Part shown: one piece after another, positions 31,952-60,898 of the stretch
Position numbering within the stretch: the first letter of the stretch is position 1
Layout: each line of letters opens with the position of its first letter
IMG/VR virus record: IMGVR_UViG_3300047462_000110
Location: 1 to 60,898 of that record
DNA length: 60,898 bases
Strand: one strand, 5' to 3'
Origin: a virus
Made by a program: the position numbers and the translations under genes
The notes under the pieces: model-generated
What the model was told of the DNA's origin: nothing
The model's input: the letters and a program-made list of their open reading frames with translations, nothing else
The model's database searches: none

Positions 31952-32138
31952 CAAAACCACTGATTTCCCTGACTTTCCTAAGCCAGATCGCCTCATGTCG
32001 TCAGTAATGTCCACCGCACAAGAGGCTGTGGCGCGCGTGGAACAGTATCGCGCGGGCGTTGAACAGATGCTCGCCTATCGATGGCTGGTGGAAAGGCTGG
32101 GATATGCTCAAGGCCGCGTATCAGGAGGAAACCGATGA
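31938..32138 (+). CDS. Small protein of unknown function
   Basis: 66 residues from ATG 31938, or 64 from ATG 31944 (MTDKTTDFPD), after GGGGAGA. Predicted to be one long helix in the C-terminal half (STAQEAVARVEQYRAGVEQM). Coupled to the next gene by ATGA. Confidence 0.5.
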   Translation: MEMTDKTTDFPDFPKPDRLMSSVMSTAQEAVARVEQYRAGVEQMLAYRWLVERLGYAQGRVSGGNR

Positions 32139-32326
32139 CCTACCAGCCTGAAACCACGATCAGCCAGCGTATTAAGCGGAAACTGTGCTACTGGCACGGC
32201 CACGACTGGCTGGTTGACGATGGTTGCCGCCGCACCTGCCGGCGGTGCGGAGCCTATCAAATGCTCATGATGCGCCCGTTTCCGAGCACCACGGAGCCTA
32301 GTTTGCAGTGGAGAGACATGGCATGA
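32135..32326 (+). CDS. DUF1660-like small zinc-binding phage protein
   Basis: 63 residues. After the N-terminal MTYQPETTISQR comes LCYWHGHDWLVDDGCRRTCR with RCGAYQ, the Cys/His pattern of DUF1660-type prophage proteins (a small one-zinc fold). Precedes the NAD+ genes and is coupled to the PRPP-synthetase-like gene by ATGA. Confidence 0.55.
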   Translation: MTYQPETTISQRIKRKLCYWHGHDWLVDDGCRRTCRRCGAYQMLMMRPFPSTTEPSLQWRDMA

Positions 32327-33168
32327 GCGATCAGCCACAAACCACCCTGACTGTAACGGCCCAGAGCACAACGGGTATCCGCGCCGTGGTGCCATTGAAG
32401 GTAATTCAGTTCTCGGCGGGCGAGGTGCAGCCGCGCATAGAGCAAACGCCAATCTCGGACATAGAGAAATTGGAGTTTCGGTTGCACTTCCGCTCAATGG
32501 GCGATTTGTTTACGCTTGGGCTGGCGGTGGACGCCTTTCGTCGCCATCCTCTTACGCGCAACGCGGTGTTTTCAGCGATCATTCCATATTTTCCTGGCGC
32601 TCGACAGGATCGGGTGTGCTATCCCGGCGAGCCTCTGACCGCTCGGGTGCTGGCTGATTTTGTCAACGCAATGCGATTTGACGCGGTCACAGTATGGGAC
32701 GCGCATAGCGACGTTCTGGGGGCGGTGCTGGACAGATGCATTCACGTCCCAGCTAGCCATTGGGCCAAGTCTCTCCCAAAGCACGCCGTTGTCGTGGCGC
32801 CTGATAAGGGGGCCAAAGGGCGCGCCGCTGCCTTCTCGTGGGCGCACCACGCTAAAATTACCGCGCAAGCAGACAAGGTTCGCGACTCAAGCAGCGGCGA
32901 GATCAAAGGCATCGCGCTGGAAACTGACCTCTCTGGTTTCGGCGATGCCGATTTTCTGATGGTGGATGACATATCGGATGGCGGTCGTACCTTTATCGAA
33001 TTGGCGAAAGTTTTGCGGCCGATGACTGCTGGCAAGATTGACCTATTTGTGACGCACCTTATCGGCGCTGGCGGTTTTGATAAGTTCCGCGGCGTCATAG
33101 ACACCATCTATACGCCGAACTGCTTTGTCACCGATGCGCCAGCCGACCTTGTTTACACCCTTTCGTAA
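32323..33168 (+). CDS. ADP-ribose pyrophosphate synthetase-like (Prs-family) enzyme, candidate NARP1 Adps
   Basis: 281 residues from ATG 32323 (ATGA with the upstream gene). Ribose-phosphate pyrophosphokinase features: PYFPGARQDRV at residues 88-98 (nucleotide loop), PGEPLTARVLADF at 101-113, VVAPDKGAKGRAAAF at 157-171 and the PRPP loop DDISDGGRT at 215-223. Canonical Prs makes PRPP from ribose-5-phosphate and ATP. In phage NARP1 the homologue Adps pyrophosphorylates ADP-ribose instead. The adjacency to a NAMPT-like gene and the absence of a visible NMN adenylyltransferase favour Adps, but substrate choice cannot be read from the sequence. Confidence 0.8.
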   Translation: MSDQPQTTLTVTAQSTTGIRAVVPLKVIQFSAGEVQPRIEQTPISDIEKLEFRLHFRSMGDLFTLGLAVDAFRRHPLTRNAVFSAIIPYFPGARQDRVCYPGEPLTARVLADFVNAMRFDAVTVWDAHSDVLGAVLDRCIHVPASHWAKSLPKHAVVVAPDKGAKGRAAAFSWAHHAKITAQADKVRDSSSGEIKGIALETDLSGFGDADFLMVDDISDGGRTFIELAKVLRPMTAGKIDLFVTHLIGAGGFDKFRGVIDTIYTPNCFVTDAPADLVYTLS

Positions 33169-33178
33169 GAAAAAACCG

Positions 33179-34681
33179 ATGAAACTGTTTGCCCCCCACC
33201 TGACCGATTTTTATAAGACTGGCCACAAGGCTCAATATCCGGACGGCACGACCATGGTGTACTCGAATTTCACGTGTCGAGGCATGAAGAACGCCAGCGT
33301 GGCGCCTGGCTGGGACGGCCGGACTGTGTTTTTTGGCCTGCAAGGCATCTGTCAATGGCTTTTTGAAGACCTGTGGAGAGAATCGTTTTTCGACCAGCCG
33401 CGTGGCAAATGCGTGGACAGATACCGGGCGCGCATGGACGGCGCGCTTGGAACTGGCGCGGTTTCGCCCGATCACATCGGTGCCCTGCATGATCTTGGCT
33501 ACCTGCCGATCTTGATTAAAGCGTTGCCCGAAGGCAGTCGCGTTCCGCTGCGTGTTCCAAGCTTGACGATCAGGAACACGCGGCCCGAGTTTTTTTGGGT
33601 GACAAATTACCTAGAAACGCAACTATCGGCCGAGCTATGGAAGCCGATCACGTCGGCCACCACGGCTTACGAATTTCGCCGGGCGTTCGACAAGTATGCG
33701 GCACGCACCGGCAGCCCGGCGGACTTCGTGCCATGGCAGGGACATGACTTCTCGATGCGCGGCATGTCGGGTGTCCATGATGCGTCGCAAAACGGCGCCG
33801 GCCACCTTTTGTCGTTCACCGGCACGGACACGATTTCGGCTATTGACTATGCCGAGGAATACTACCCAGACGCACAGCCGGGTTTCATTGGCGGGTCGGT
33901 TCCCGCAACCGAGCATTCGGTCATGTGCATGGGCGGCGAGGACGACGAGATTGGCACTTTCGTTCGTCTGATGGACCGCTATCCGTCTGGCGTGCTTTCC
34001 GTGGTGTCTGACACATGGGACTTTTGGCAGGTAATCACCGGCTACACCGTGCGGCTCAGGGACCGCATCATGGCGCGCGACGGCAAGTTGGTGTTCCGGC
34101 CCGACAGCGGCGACCCGGTGCTCATCATTTGTGGTGACCCCGACGCGCCCGCCTACACGCCCGAACATAAGGGGGCCGTTGAATGCCTCTGGGATGTATT
34201 CGGTGGCACAACCACCGGCGCAGGGTATAGGCTCTTAGACAGCCATGTCGGGTTGATCTACGGCGATTCAATCAACATCGCTCGCCAGGGCGAGATTTTA
34301 GGCCGTTTGGCAGCAAAAGGTTTCGCATCCGGCAATGTGGTGCTGGGCATAGGCTCCTACACCTATCAATTCGTAACCAGGGACACCTTTGGTACGGCAA
34401 TCAAGGCGACTGAGAGCACTGTCGGCGGGGTGGATCGGGCGCTTAGCAAAAAACCCAAGACCGACGACGGCCTGAAAAACTCGGCGCGGGGACTGCTTCG
34501 CGTGGAGGCAGATGCCGAACGCGGGTTCTTGCTTCATCAAGATCAGACATGGGAGCAAGAAGCCGTAGGCATGCTCAAAATCGCATTCTGCGACGGTAAA
34601 ACCGTGCGCAAGGATGGCTTTTCAGCAATCCGGGCGCGACTATTTGGGGCATCAAACGCGGCACGGGACTTGGCGGCATGA
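33179..34681 (+). CDS. Nicotinamide phosphoribosyltransferase-like enzyme (NAMPT/Namat)
   Basis: 500 residues from ATG 33179; an upstream in-frame start lies inside the preceding gene. NAMPT-family features: FYKTGHKAQYPDGTT near residue 11, VYSNFTCRG at 27-35, GTDT at 215-218 (substrate Asp217), VPATEHS at 241-247 (catalytic-type His246) and RPDSGDP at 307-313. It joins nicotinamide to PRPP (giving NMN) or, in the NARP1 version, to ADP-ribose pyrophosphate (giving NAD+ directly). Encoded 10 bp after its presumed partner. All recognisable active-site residues are present. Confidence 0.88.
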   Translation: MKLFAPHLTDFYKTGHKAQYPDGTTMVYSNFTCRGMKNASVAPGWDGRTVFFGLQGICQWLFEDLWRESFFDQPRGKCVDRYRARMDGALGTGAVSPDHIGALHDLGYLPILIKALPEGSRVPLRVPSLTIRNTRPEFFWVTNYLETQLSAELWKPITSATTAYEFRRAFDKYAARTGSPADFVPWQGHDFSMRGMSGVHDASQNGAGHLLSFTGTDTISAIDYAEEYYPDAQPGFIGGSVPATEHSVMCMGGEDDEIGTFVRLMDRYPSGVLSVVSDTWDFWQVITGYTVRLRDRIMARDGKLVFRPDSGDPVLIICGDPDAPAYTPEHKGAVECLWDVFGGTTTGAGYRLLDSHVGLIYGDSINIARQGEILGRLAAKGFASGNVVLGIGSYTYQFVTRDTFGTAIKATESTVGGVDRALSKKPKTDDGLKNSARGLLRVEADAERGFLLHQDQTWEQEAVGMLKIAFCDGKTVRKDGFSAIRARLFGASNAARDLAA

Positions 34682-34917
34682 ACAACACCCCGCAGCCTGA
34701 AACCACCGATCACTCATCGCTCTGGAACGATTTGCCGCTTGATGAGCGAAAGCGGCTAATGCCGTATCAGATTGAGTGCCAAATCCGACATTTGGAGCAG
34801 GCGCGAAGAATGGCCGTGAATGCACACAGGCGGCTGTTAGCCGATATAGACGGCGTGATTGAAAACTGCCGCCGGCATCTGAAAGAGGAAGTGGCCGACG
34901 CCTCGGGATCGACGTAG
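34678..34917 (+). CDS. Small helical protein with N-terminal PETT motif
   Basis: 79 residues, ATGA-coupled to the NAMPT-like gene. Starts MNNTPQPETTDHS, then is predicted helical (PYQIECQIRHLEQARRMAVN, AHRRLLADIDGVI). Last gene of the operon; it converges with the leftward operon across a 10-bp gap with no clear terminator. Function unknown. Confidence 0.5.
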   Translation: MNNTPQPETTDHSSLWNDLPLDERKRLMPYQIECQIRHLEQARRMAVNAHRRLLADIDGVIENCRRHLKEEVADASGST

Positions 34918-37346: not shown

Positions 37347-37531
37347 CACGCACCTTTGCCGATTTCGCAGCGCCAGCCGGCAACCTCCCAGCCCGGATGC
37401 TCATGCAACCACTGTTGAGCCACGTTAACCGCCTGCGCCTCGGTGCATACCAGCGAGGATGACGGCGCCCATTTTGCCACGCACCTTGCCGCGTGGCCGT
37501 AAAGGCAGAAATACAGAATGATCACGCTCAT
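37346..37531 (-). CDS. Small protein with hydrophobic N-terminus
   Basis: 61 residues. A short hydrophobic start (SVIILYFCLYGHAA) is followed by four-cysteine polar sequence (CVAKWAPSSSLVCTEAQAVN). Overlaps RusA by 4 bp. Membrane association is possible. Confidence 0.45.
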   Translation of the reverse strand: MSVIILYFCLYGHAARCVAKWAPSSSLVCTEAQAVNVAQQWLHEHPGWEVAGWRCEIGKGA

Positions 37532-37941
37532 AGCGGCCTCACTGTTATGCGGGTTTCGGGTTTTTCGGCGTACCGTTTCGTCACGCTGGCATCCACAATC
37601 TGCGCATCATCGCGCCAGACGATGCCGTTGAGCGCGTCCGTCATTTTGAAAATATTGTCGCAATCTGGCTTGCTCGTGGGCCGGATCACGCCGGCCAGAG
37701 CATCGGCTTTTTTTTTCTTCGACCAGCTCTCGGGAATGCCCACCGCCACCGCCATGCAGACGGCCAGCGGCCCTTCCAGACAGGGTGTGCCGACTTGCTC
37801 GACGGCACACGCCTTGATCCAGTTTTCCGCGCTCACGGTCTTTGCGTCCGTGTAGGCGCGCGCGAACTTGCCCTGCACCGCAAAGCGCGGCCGGCCCTTG
37901 CCACGCGCCGCACCAGGCACAATGATCGTGAGCGTATCCAT
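37528..37941 (-). CDS. rusA: RusA-like Holliday junction resolvase
   Basis: 137 residues, normal for RusA. KGRPRFAVQGKFARAYTDAK near the N-terminus, KPDCDN with Asp93 and Asp95, and WRDDAQIVDASVTKRY with Asp111/Asp112 supply the acidic metal-binding residues. It cuts four-way junctions made during phage recombination and replication, complementing the Bet-like annealase in the rightward operon. Abuts the GapR-like gene. Confidence 0.88.
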   Translation of the reverse strand: MDTLTIIVPGAARGKGRPRFAVQGKFARAYTDAKTVSAENWIKACAVEQVGTPCLEGPLAVCMAVAVGIPESWSKKKKADALAGVIRPTSKPDCDNIFKMTDALNGIVWRDDAQIVDASVTKRYAEKPETRITVRPL

Positions 37942-38240
37942 TACATGCCCAGCGCGCGGCGATACACGTCCAGCAGGGTTTCTTGCTCTTCCACTTCGGC
38001 GGGTTCCTGCTTGCGCAGGCGAATGATCTGGCGGAGCACCTTCACGTCGAAGCCAGCGGATTTTGCCTCGACATAGATATCGGCAATGTCGCTTCCAATG
38101 GCCTTCCGCTCTTCCTCCAGCCGTTCGATGCGGTCGACAACGGATCGCAGCCGATCCGCCGCAACGTCACCATCGGCGCGCGTGTGAAGGCGCCGAGTTT
38201 TGCCCAGGCTATCAGTTTCCAGATCGGTTTGCGCCTGCAT
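37941..38240 (-). CDS. gapR: GapR / DUF2312 nucleoid-associated protein
   Basis: 99 residues. LRSVVDRIERLEEERKAIGS, then DIYVEAKSAGFDVKVLRQII and RLRKQEPAEVEEQETLLDVY are signature sequences of the GapR family. In alphaproteobacteria GapR binds overtwisted DNA ahead of polymerases and is needed for replication. A phage copy could aid phage DNA replication or compete with the host protein. Strong evidence for an alphaproteobacterial host. Confidence 0.9.
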   Translation of the reverse strand: MQAQTDLETDSLGKTRRLHTRADGDVAADRLRSVVDRIERLEEERKAIGSDIADIYVEAKSAGFDVKVLRQIIRLRKQEPAEVEEQETLLDVYRRALGM

Positions 38241-42914: not shown

Positions 42915-43766
42915 ATGACCGAAAAAACCTGGATTACCGATGAAAGCGGCAACCGCTGTAGCGTGGAGTACTGGGGCAGCGAGGAAGCCGCTTGGGCAGC
43001 ACTAGCAAGTTTGAAAAACTGCCGGGGCTGCTCGGACTGCTCGGACTGCTCGGACTGCCGGGGCTGCTCGGACTGCTCGGACTGCCGGGGCTGCTCGGAC
43101 TGCTCGGGCTGCTCGCTCTGCCGGGGCTGCCGGGGCTGCTCGCTCTGCCGGGGCTGCTCGGGCTGCCGGGGCTGCTCGGACTGCTCGGACTGCTCGGACT
43201 GCCGGGGCTGCTCGGACTGCTCGGACTGCTCGCTCTGCCGGGGCTGCCGGGGCTGCTCGGGCTGCTCGCTCTGCCGGGGCTGCCGGGGCTGCTCGCTCTG
43301 CCGGGGCTGCTCGGACTGCTTGGGCTGCTCGCTCTGCCGGGACTGCCGGGACTGCTGGCTCTGCCGGGACTGCTCGGGCTGCTCGGACTGCTCGCTCTGC
43401 CGGGGCTGCCGGGGCTGCTCGGGCTGCTCGGACAAAATCGGGCACGCCGCTGCTGGCGGCGCTCTTCCGCCCCCCAAAATCGAGAACATTCATTCCAAGA
43501 TTTACGCGGCCGTTTCGCGGGAAGGCGCGCTCAATATGGGTGATTGGCACACGTGCGAAACCACGCACTGCCGCGCCGGGTGGGCTGTGCATTTGTGCGG
43601 CGACGCCGGTTATGCATTGGAAAGACTTCACGGCTCATTGCTCGCCGCGCAACTGATCTATCGCGAGAGCGGCGCCCCGATCAATCCGGCGCGGTTTTTC
43701 GACAGCAACGAAGTCGCCATGGCCGACATGAAGCGGCTCGCCGAAGAAGAAGCGGCGAAGGCGTAA
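42915..43766 (+). CDS. Cysteine tripeptide-repeat protein, copy A
   Basis: 283 residues after AAGGAAAA. Residues 1-35 (MTEKTWITDESGNRCSVEYW onwards) form a short conserved head. Residues 36-173 are 46 uninterrupted Cys-X-X tripeptides, where X-X is RG, SD, SG, SL, RD, LG or WL. Residues 174-283 are a C-terminal domain with WHTCETTHCRAGWAV, HLCGDAGYALERL and PARFFDSNEVAMADM. A single chain with about 50 evenly spaced cysteines could bind metals or form a disulfide helix. Not a recognised enzyme. The repeat is also open in other frames, but only this frame has a head, a tail and a ribosome site. Confidence 0.75.
   Translation: MTEKTWITDESGNRCSVEYWGSEEAAWAALASLKNCRGCSDCSDCSDCRGCSDCSDCRGCSDCSGCSLCRGCRGCSLCRGCSGCRGCSDCSDCSDCRGCSDCSDCSLCRGCRGCSGCSLCRGCRGCSLCRGCSDCLGCSLCRDCRDCWLCRDCSGCSDCSLCRGCRGCSGCSDKIGHAAAGGALPPPKIENIHSKIYAAVSREGALNMGDWHTCETTHCRAGWAVHLCGDAGYALERLHGSLLAAQLIYRESGAPINPARFFDSNEVAMADMKRLAEEEAAKA
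43020..43433. repeat. 9-bp tandem repeat array A (46 units)
   Basis: 46 nine-base units of the type TGC-NNN-NNN encode the Cys-X-X run. Cysteine is always TGC; the middle codon is TCG, CGG, TTG or TGG and the last GGC, GAC or CTC. No insertions break the period. Confidence 0.95.
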
Positions 43767-43796: not shown

Positions 43797-44711
43797 GTGA
43801 CCGAAAAAACCTGGATTACCGATGAAAGCGGCAACCGCTGTAGCGTGGAGTACTGGGGCAGCGAGGAAGCCGCTCGGGCAGCACTAGCAAGTTTGAAAAA
43901 CTGCCGGGGCTGCTCGGACTGCTCGGACTGCTCGGACTGCTCGGACTGCCGGGACTGCTCGCTCTGCCGGGACTGCTTGGGCTGCTCGCTCTGCCGGGAC
44001 TGCTCGGGCTGCTGGCTCTGCCGGGACTGCTCGGGCTGCTCGGACTGCTTGGGCTGCTCGGACTGCCGGGGCTGCTCGGGCTGCCGGGGCTGCTCGGGCT
44101 GCTCGGACTGCTCGGACTGCTTGGGCTGCTCGGACTGCCGGGGCTGCTCGGACTGCTCGGGCTGCTCGGACTGCCGGGGCTGCTCGGACTGCTCGGGCTG
44201 CTCGGACTGCTTGGGCTGCTCGCTCTGCCGGGGCTGCTCGGGCTGCTCGGACTGCTTGGGCTGCTCGGACTGCCGGGGCTGCTTGGGCTGCTCGGACTGC
44301 TCGGGCTGCTCGGACTGCTCGCTCTGCCGGGACTGCTCGGGCTGCTCGCTCTGCCGGGACTGCTCGGGCTGCTCGGACAAAATCGGGCACGCCGCTGCTG
44401 GCGGCGCTCTTCCGCCCCCCAAAATCGAGAACATTCATTCCAAGATTTACGCGGCCGTTTCGCGGGAAGGCGCGCTCAATATGGGTGATTGGCACACGTG
44501 CGAAACCACGCACTGCCGCGCCGGGTGGGCTGTGCATTTGTGCGGCGACGCCGGTTATGCATTGGAAAGACTTCACGGCTCATTGCTCGCCGCGCAACTG
44601 ATCTATCGCGAGAGCGGCGCCCCGATCAATCCGGCGCGGTTTTTTGACGGCACCGAAGCAGCCTTGGCCGACATGAAGCGGCTCGCCGAAGAAGAAGCGG
44701 CGAAGGCGTAA
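43797..44711 (+). CDS. Cysteine tripeptide-repeat protein, copy B
   Basis: 304 residues, GTG start after AAGGAG. Nearly identical to copy A at both ends (head differs Trp to Arg; DSNEVAMADM becomes DGTEAALADM), but it has 53 Cys-X-X units instead of 46, exactly accounting for the 21 extra residues. The duplication includes the 30-bp 3' leader, so it arose as a tandem copy. The order of the repeats differs from copy A, while the three-residue period and the Cys are fully kept. Confidence 0.75.
   Translation: MTEKTWITDESGNRCSVEYWGSEEAARAALASLKNCRGCSDCSDCSDCSDCRDCSLCRDCLGCSLCRDCSGCWLCRDCSGCSDCLGCSDCRGCSGCRGCSGCSDCSDCLGCSDCRGCSDCSGCSDCRGCSDCSGCSDCLGCSLCRGCSGCSDCLGCSDCRGCLGCSDCSGCSDCSLCRDCSGCSLCRDCSGCSDKIGHAAAGGALPPPKIENIHSKIYAAVSREGALNMGDWHTCETTHCRAGWAVHLCGDAGYALERLHGSLLAAQLIYRESGAPINPARFFDGTEAALADMKRLAEEEAAKA
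43902..44378. repeat. 9-bp tandem repeat array B (53 units)
   Basis: Second array of TGC-NNN-NNN units, seven longer than array A and with a different order of unit types. The DNA flanking both arrays on the 3' side is identical for more than 200 bp. Confidence 0.95.
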
Positions 44712-60100: not shown

Positions 60101-60898
60101 TCAGCATGGGCCATGATGTTTTGAAAGGCGCGTCTGGAACTCTCTCCGGATTTATCAGGAGATCCTTAATTCTTGCCCATTCCAGTCTCTTTTCGGCTGA
60201 AATTTCAGAATCAATTTCCCTTGCTGCACTGTCTTCGTCTTCTATTTCTTGATAGCGTTCTTCAAGTGCTTTTCGCTCATCGGCTGGCGGCTGATAACCT
60301 TTACGACGCCCTTCTTGGTGCCAATCACTTTGAATTTCATGCACCAGCAGCGTGCGCTTACCATCCGCGCCAATGCGCTCATCGAAGCGAGTATGGGCGA
60401 TGACATTGGGCTCGCCCCAATGACCACGTTTGTAGCTCAGCCCACCTTCGCGATTGCTTGGCGGCAAAGAAATCAGCAACTCATTGTAGTTTTCTCCGCC
60501 CTCTGTTTTGTAACGGCTATAAACCGTCGCTTGGCCCTTATAGCCAAACAGGGCATCTGAAAAGTCGTCGTATAGTTCTTGGTCGGCATTAGACCGCAGG
60601 AGATCGTTCAAACTGATTTCATCTAATGGCTTAGTTATTCCGGCCGCTCGTAGTCTTTGTTCAAGAGGCTTTATCCTGTTCGGATCAGCAAGAACCGTTT
60701 CTTTTGCAACCAGCGAATTGGCGCGCACATAATTCACAATGTCATCGCGCGTCACGGATTTCTGCCCGTGCAGCCATTCAGGCAGCCCAAGCCACTTCAT
60801 TTCTTCCGGTTTCACGCCAGGCGCTTTTTGCAACATGGCAAGCATCTGCTCGCCTGTGCCTTTACCCTGCTTCATGTCCAGAGCGGCGCGCGCCACGC
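57168..60898 (-). CDS. Giant polyvalent virion protein, C-terminal part (continues from 1)
   Basis: 1,243 codons to the TGA at 57168, in frame with the segment at 1-4265 through the 109-bp repeat. Residue numbers follow the joined protein: about 1,410-1,880 is a domain with LVHEIQSDWHQEGRRKGY, WPMLTMKRLIKWAVDNNFDR and MKGFYDEILPKETQ, as found in many phage polyvalent proteins. A long helical region of about 700 residues follows, with hydrophobic segments (RMAYALAMPTVIMPLGAVIT) that could insert in a membrane during DNA ejection. Bases of about 59500-60780 look less GC-rich than the flanks. Confidence 0.85.
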   Translation of the reverse strand, partial: VARAALDMKQGKGTGEQMLAMLQKAPGVKPEEMKWLGLPEWLHGQKSVTRDDIVNYVRANSLVAKETVLADPNRIKPLEQRLRAAGITKPLDEISLNDLLRSNADQELYDDFSDALFGYKGQATVYSRYKTEGGENYNELLISLPPSNREGGLSYKRGHWGEPNVIAHTRFDERIGADGKRTLLVHEIQSDWHQEGRRKGYQPPADERKALEERYQEIEDEDSAAREIDSEISAEKRLEWARIKDLLINPERVPDAPFKTSWPMLTMKRLIKWAVDNNFDRVAWEPGQVQVDRYKLSKQVGRLDYIPTTNELHAFGYSGKLIHSFSDATPDRLPKLIGKETAQKLLAQQERPLPGGRSHQKQLTGIDLKLGGEGMKGFYDEILPKETQKLIGKYGAQVKSSKVSKGLYNDPIDYFHPFKAGEDGSYRVVNGRGEDYNEKGRYSHDDAYALADRVNQEIRGHEVFETHSFDITPAMRAAVTQDGLPLFSLRGDGRDPAERKRNVQNLHLALTTPSRAGASKIRAIANNAKAIFSPTSLAGAKPTEHVVRRNAARLAASYARTVADLSDLRDAMNALPVEEQYAFTARMEKGERQPTPELQAISDLLRASYDSWAKLIQSLGKGYLEQTIANYAPHIWANYKEWVQGRPADATADPKQRAAAAGASKSPVQGSGAFLEPRSFETQEDGMRAGLVPVSSNPIDLAMIKLREMQKMYHGTRMIDDMQRQGIAHWVPVGKEGDARAAGMVELNDQGFKPTVTDKGGRTTYGSYWADENAARIFNNYTSKGWGGQPIYDAIRASGNALNQLQLGLSAFHAIFVTLDCAISRVALGYKQIARGDVVKGAGNVVAGATPGVGQLATAAQTVRRGSALRQAILYPEAATPELRKIADLAMAGGARVAQQQILRAEASGSFVRNLGDFTNGHVFREIAATVRKSPLMAPLHLAGRTIETMAQPLMDLYVPRAKLGVFYDMAHDWAQANPDATPEQTADAMTKAWDSVDNRMGQLVYDNLFWNKTMKDLAFITTRSVGWNLGTVRELGGAGVDTVAQLANVMQRKPADLTHRMAYALAMPTVIMPLGAVITYMITGAAPQSLKDYFYPPDGKGGRLSIPSYIKDVVDYVHDPMQTLENKAHPLVGMAGELISNHDYYGGIIHDPQRDHVIQSYLNYLLNEATPLAVRSAVRSQEQGLSPLDQVANFFGFVQAPALITHPERGAAWQAKQNKSAFRRRAKEQGRVGVQLPDWAP
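60790..60898. repeat. Direct terminal repeat, right copy
   Basis: Exact copy of 1-109; see the left copy. Confidence 0.95.

Follow-up and report, generated by a model that had tools for sequence, protein, structure and literature searches.

The stretch of DNA analysed here, referred to as the window, is the whole of the IMG/VR virus record IMGVR_UViG_3300047462_000110, 60,898 bp in length. Two co-directional plus-strand genes occupy positions 32323-34681, running from the start of the first ORF to the stop of the second and lying exactly 10 bp apart, as the original prediction had placed them. The first encodes a protein resembling ADP-ribose pyrophosphate synthetase (Adps) and the second a protein resembling nicotinamide ADP-ribose transferase (Namat); presumably they form one operon. 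The features considered are:

32081..32326, plus strand: small upstream ORF, silent in Pfam, with its stop codon overlapping the start of the Adps-like gene (ATGA, 32323-32326)
32323..33168, plus strand: Adps-like gene, Prs fold, 281 aa, ATG start (PF13793, PHROG 619, catalytic residues, tree, AF2 model)
33169..33178, plus strand: intergenic gap of 10 bp, GAAAAAACCG, between the Adps-like and Namat-like genes
33179..34681, plus strand: Namat-like gene, NAMPT fold, 500 aa, ATG start (PDB match, clamp, core residues, tree, AF2 model)
34352..34384, plus strand: clamp-helix motif GSYTYQFVTRD, residues 392-402 of the Namat-like protein, aromatics at positions 3 and 7
34678..34917, plus strand: 79-aa ORF with its start codon overlapping the stop of the Namat-like gene (ATGA, 34678-34681)
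1-109 and 60790-60898: direct terminal repeat of 109 bp, the first and last 109 bases being identical

The upstream ORF and the Adps-like gene are presumed to be translationally coupled through their ATGA overlap. The 79-aa ORF, which has no Pfam match and no homologue in the loci fetched, is a possible third gene of the operon.

The end repeat points to a circularly assembled record, so that the phage genome is probably complete, a closed circular assembly. The minus strand encodes terminase, portal and major head protein, whereas integrase, RecT and MT-A70 are read from the plus strand; judged by these genes, the uncultivated virus is a temperate tailed phage. Its capsid protein is nearest to that of an uncultured spring-water phage (54.5%), followed at ∼37% by phages such as Pelagibacter phage HTVC023P. 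An alphaproteobacterial host is hinted at by a RusA resolvase and a GapR-like DNA-binding protein (37528-38240), together with terminase and capsid matches that include Paracoccus, Roseobacter and Caulobacter phages. Directly after RecT, two adjoining ORFs (42915-43766 and 43797-44711) both match PHROGs 31265 and 15341, of unknown function, and read as a tandem duplicate. The pair belongs to a run of small plus-strand genes at 30.2-34.9 kb, with the structural genes on one side and the replication genes on the other. A search of 16 viral records with a related terminase, some of which are partial, gave no Namat match, and the pair therefore looks like an accessory acquisition by the phage. The other genes of the window had no relatives at the loci compared at that point, except for the terminase in locus L013.

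The Prs-like and NAMPT-like identities given in the original prediction are upheld by matches far beyond chance, to PF13793 and PHROG 619 for the first protein and to NAPRTase/NAMPT_N and PHROG 448 for the second. Taken as folds, Prs and NAMPT would also suit classic salvage, in which a phage Prs makes PRPP from ribose 5-phosphate (R5P), a phage NAMPT turns it into NMN, and a host NMN adenylyltransferase (NMNAT) completes NAD+. NAMPT and Namat have a common core and are told apart by the clamp (PMC12774641).

The Namat-like protein matches PHROG 448, ‘nicotinamide phosphoribosyl transferase’, with an E-value of 4e-179. Its best PDB match is the Namat of Bacillus phage SPbetaL1 (9w5x/9w5w, 503.6 bits), ahead of HdNadV (434 bits) and mammalian NAMPT (∼195-198 bits), and a confident AlphaFold (AF2) model (pLDDT 91.6) returns the same order in Foldseek: crystallised Namat 9w5x first (TM 0.92), then HdNadV, then mammalian NAMPTs. 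In the alignment the protein matches SPbetaL1 Namat exactly at the core residues D13, Y15, F189, R192, D215, A242, R306, D308, S391, R399, T398 and D400, and the ATEHSVMC motif with its active-site His is present. The published clamp-helix signature is GSx-x-x-TRD, in which positions 3 and 7 are aromatic (PMC12774641). The window's GSYTYQFVTRD fits it, with aromatics at both adenine-stacking positions, where F392/Y396 of SPbetaL1 become Y/F.

How far this signature discriminates can be judged from relatives. The pattern GS[FY]x[aromatic]...TRD is shared by all close relatives compared, viral (80/80) as well as bacterial (80/80), but by none of 21 control viral NAMPTs; the controls are relatives of the NAMPT of Mesorhizobium phage Cp1R7A-A1, and all have an NMNAT-like neighbour and none an Adps-like one. 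HdNadV (9ke8, solved with NMN) also lacks it, reading GAQTYQRNTRD, yet is fairly close in sequence. An IQ-TREE phylogeny separates Namat-like proteins from NAMPTs by one branch (SH-aLRT 100), with the window on the side of the SPbetaL1 and Bas63 Namats. An Adps-like gene lies on the same locus in 73/80 viral Namat relatives, and the remainder include several short contigs. Both the signature and its absence from the NMNAT-linked NAMPTs and HdNadV argue against classic salvage. In its favour, Namats retain activity on PRPP, from which they make NMN (PMC12774641), so that a classic side activity could run alongside the NARP1 reaction. A variant clamp motif, GSYSLNMLSRD, in which Met takes the place of the second aromatic, was seen in the Namat-like protein of Acinetobacter phage vB_AbaM_P1 (L088, 3920-5761), where a putative phosphatase gene adjoins.

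The Adps-like protein has the PRPP-synthetase fold in a divergent form: Pribosyltran_N (PF13793) matches at 30.6 bits and PHROG 619, ‘ribose-phosphate pyrophosphokinase’, at E 5e-65. Its AF2 model is confident (pLDDT 93.9) and Foldseek leads to PRPP synthetases (TM ∼0.70-0.75). The pyrophosphokinase catalytic residues are all present, as RQDR and the equivalents of H131, K194, R196, D220 and D221. The loop DDISDGGRT is of the Adps type, with DGGRT in place of the canonical R5P loop DTGGT of Prs. At the position of T225 in Escherichia coli Prs, within the loop that holds the 5'-phosphate of R5P, Gly is found in the window and in 147/151 Adps-like proteins, as against Thr or Ser in 9/9 canonical Prs; the Thr to Gly change presumably accommodates the ADP half of ADP-ribose. 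The tree of Prs and Adps sequences that the original prediction had proposed as a check bears it out: one branch with SH-aLRT 100 divides 41 Adps-like proteins (including those of SPbetaL1, Bas63 and ICP1) from nine canonical Prs (including that of E. coli), and the window falls in the Adps clade with SPbetaL1 and Bas63. A position outside canonical Prs, combined with an altered phosphate loop, is again at odds with classic salvage. Each of eight pair-bearing bacterial genomes encodes a canonical Prs that matches strongly (157-182 bits); in seven there is also a second, weak match (24-36 bits), comparable to that of the window. A scan of viral contigs with the Adps protein alone confirmed nothing, the peptide patterns being too divergent, and Adps neighbours were found through the Namat loci instead.

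The NMNAT domain PF01467 (CTP_transf_like) is absent from all six frames of the window, with control genomes positive, and because the record closes with the 109-bp repeat this probably holds for the whole phage genome. Across 49 virus records, PF01467 is above the cut-off in 4/39 of the NARP1 type (all >95 kb) and in 10/10 of the classic NAMPT-NMNAT type. The earlier argument that a missing NMNAT favours NARP1 is thus sound as a correlation and weak taken alone, since the last step of the classic route could be supplied by the host, which can be expected to have an NMNAT. That NMNAT-linked viral NAMPTs have no Prs-like neighbour tells further against this route, and on balance classic salvage is improbable. 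NUDIX and macro domains are likewise absent from the window (controls positive), whereas the RyR profile was silent in the window and its controls alike.

The pair might also descend from NARP1 with one enzyme, most likely Adps, having lost its activity or changed activity or substrate, through decay or through adaptation to another ADP-ribose derivative. The Adps-like branch is long (1.48 against a median of 0.77), and the protein is more divergent from its characterised relatives than is the Namat-like protein. Among the 34 columns conserved to 90% or more, it departs from its relatives at three (C218S, G246L, F248G), and S249A also differs. In the Namat-like protein, Lys-Asn occupies the clamp-loop site that is filled in characterised Namats by Arg, or by Lys or Tyr plus a stacking residue; the loop is ∼5 residues longer than that of SPbetaL1, is variable in close relatives, and has no obvious adenine-stacking residue unless a Trp further along serves. 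Characterised Namats are at most ∼50% identical to it and none falls within its immediate subclade. These points also count against the NARP1 reading itself. The claim of intact motifs stands for the catalytic residues of both proteins and needs qualifying for Adps at the three conserved positions. Against a changed enzyme speak the open frames, the retention of every catalytic residue and the confident predicted folds, and the characterised, active SPbetaL1 Adps departs at eight of the same conserved columns. An altered enzyme is accordingly very improbable, slightly more so than classic salvage.

With the clamp signature, the catalytic core, both trees, the gene order and the lack of a phage NMNAT all pointing the same way, the gene pair is very probably a NARP1 module, as first proposed, rather than a Prs with a classic NAMPT. 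The system itself is already known and the window's pair is a further example; characterised relatives come from SPbetaL1 and Paenibacillus (PMC12774641), DyoEdafos (PMC13232231) and ICP1, as NrsAB (PMC11559045). In a first step, the Adps-like enzyme would use ATP to pyrophosphorylate ADP-ribose, which yields ADP-ribose pyrophosphate (ADPR-PP); in a second, the Namat-like enzyme would exchange the pyrophosphate for nicotinamide and so form NAD+ directly. ADP-ribose and nicotinamide are the very products of NAD+-cleaving defences (TIR, SIR2 and SEFIR types), and from them the phage would replenish the NAD+ pool and so blunt abortive infection. By analogy with the characterised systems, these reactions, expression during infection and a role in counter-defence may be expected of the pair.

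An active NARP1 pair could instead have a mainly metabolic role, supplying NAD+ or clearing ADP-ribose for the phage or lysogen; the chemistry is the same and only the role differs. The phage has an integrase, and bacterial chromosomes carry the same pair beside the ADP-ribose-responsive regulator NrtR: in 80 bacterial loci (L090-L169) an Adps-like gene is present in 77, an NrtR-like gene in 77 and both in 75. That the pair was not found in the 16 terminase-related contigs, several of which are partial, is what would be seen with an accessory gene, however, and phage NARP1, where characterised, counters NAD+-depleting defences (PMC12774641, PMC13232231). A mainly metabolic role is unlikely, if less so than either reading with different chemistry.

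All six tested neighbours of the bacterial type combine a Nudix domain with the NrtR winged helix (NrtR_WHD) in Pfam; examples of NrtR beside the pair lie at L082 6546-7313 and L096 5308-6009. L082 (Acinetobacter) is the nearest annotated relative, and its neighbour is labelled ‘bifunctional NMN adenylyltransferase’, which suggested the classic pathway; this was rejected, as Pfam identifies NrtR and not NMNAT. NrtR beside a bacterial Adps-Namat pair has therefore been misannotated in this way at least once. The L082 record, ‘Acinetobacter phage MD-2021a’, has ABC transporter, efflux and folate genes around the pair, a chromosome-like setting that makes the phage label look doubtful.

In several Bacteroidota (L112, L119, L125, L134, L139, L142, L162, L168), genes for NADAR, Tpt1/KptA, microbial PARG, ADP-ribosylglycohydrolase, metallophosphoesterase or Nuc_deoxyri_tr2 lie between Adps and Namat, and may form an ADP-ribose scavenging island. 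Two further kinds of ORF recur in this position. One is small and HAD-like (DFDDTV.DFH; Pfam silent in two tested), found in phages (L007 6906-7322, L032 3816-4274, L048, L050, L051, L055, L067, L073) and Bacteroidota (L157, L166, L169). The other reads like a macro domain (HGCN..MG.G; Pfam silent in two tested; L015 7268-7702, L057 6949-7476, L058, L063, L077, L080).

ADP-ribose releases NrtR from DNA, as shown for Mycobacterium smegmatis (PMC6800001). Together with the linkage to NrtR and the ADP-ribose-handling genes, this leads to a tentative hypothesis, plausible without being favoured: chromosomal ‘prs-nadV’ clusters with NrtR, in some Bacteroidota with Tpt1/KptA, NADAR, PARG and ADP-ribosylglycohydrolase, would be substrate-induced NARP1 and not NMN salvage, and the window's pair a phage offshoot of this widespread bacterial ADP-ribose recycling, phages having taken the enzymes without the regulator. 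Bacterial NARP1 has already been published, in a paper that does not mention NrtR (PMC12774641). The comparison suggests that ADP-ribose recycling controlled by NrtR is what many bacterial clusters now labelled NMN salvage carry out. For phages, the clamp signature and the DGGxT loop, as against an NMNAT neighbour, provide a cheap rule for separating NARP1 from classic NAD+ salvage. The window adds a clean case of putative NAD+ reconstitution in an uncultivated temperate phage, and its divergent Adps and unusual clamp loop could be used to test how Namat recognises adenine.

Among the known systems compared, classic NadV-NMNAT salvage (HdNadV, 9ke8; the Mesorhizobium phage Cp1R7A-A1 type) has the NAMPT fold and catalytic core in common with the window but no clamp signature, and its phage type has an NMNAT gene as neighbour where the window has Adps. 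Bacterial chromosomal clusters (Acinetobacter, Caulobacterales, Bacteroidota, Achromobacter) have an Adps-like gene and a clamp-signature Namat that is 52-61% identical to the window's; they come with NrtR and sometimes ADP-ribose-handling genes, whereas the window has neither NUDIX nor macro domain. The NARP1 of Bas63 (Escherichia phage JohannRWettstein) and the NrsAB of ICP1 have clades and signature in common with the window, but their phages are larger (87 and 126 kb) and come from other lineages, with clamp loops reading K-W in Bas63 and K-Y in ICP1 against K-N here. SPbetaL1 NARP1 (Namat structures 9w5w/9w5x) shares the gene pair, its order, the core residues and the clamp-helix signature, with ∼48% identity in Namat. 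Its genes overlap where the window has a 10-bp gap, its clamp-loop Arg40 corresponds to Lys then Asn in a longer loop, and its Adps loop SSFGGT corresponds to SDGGRT.
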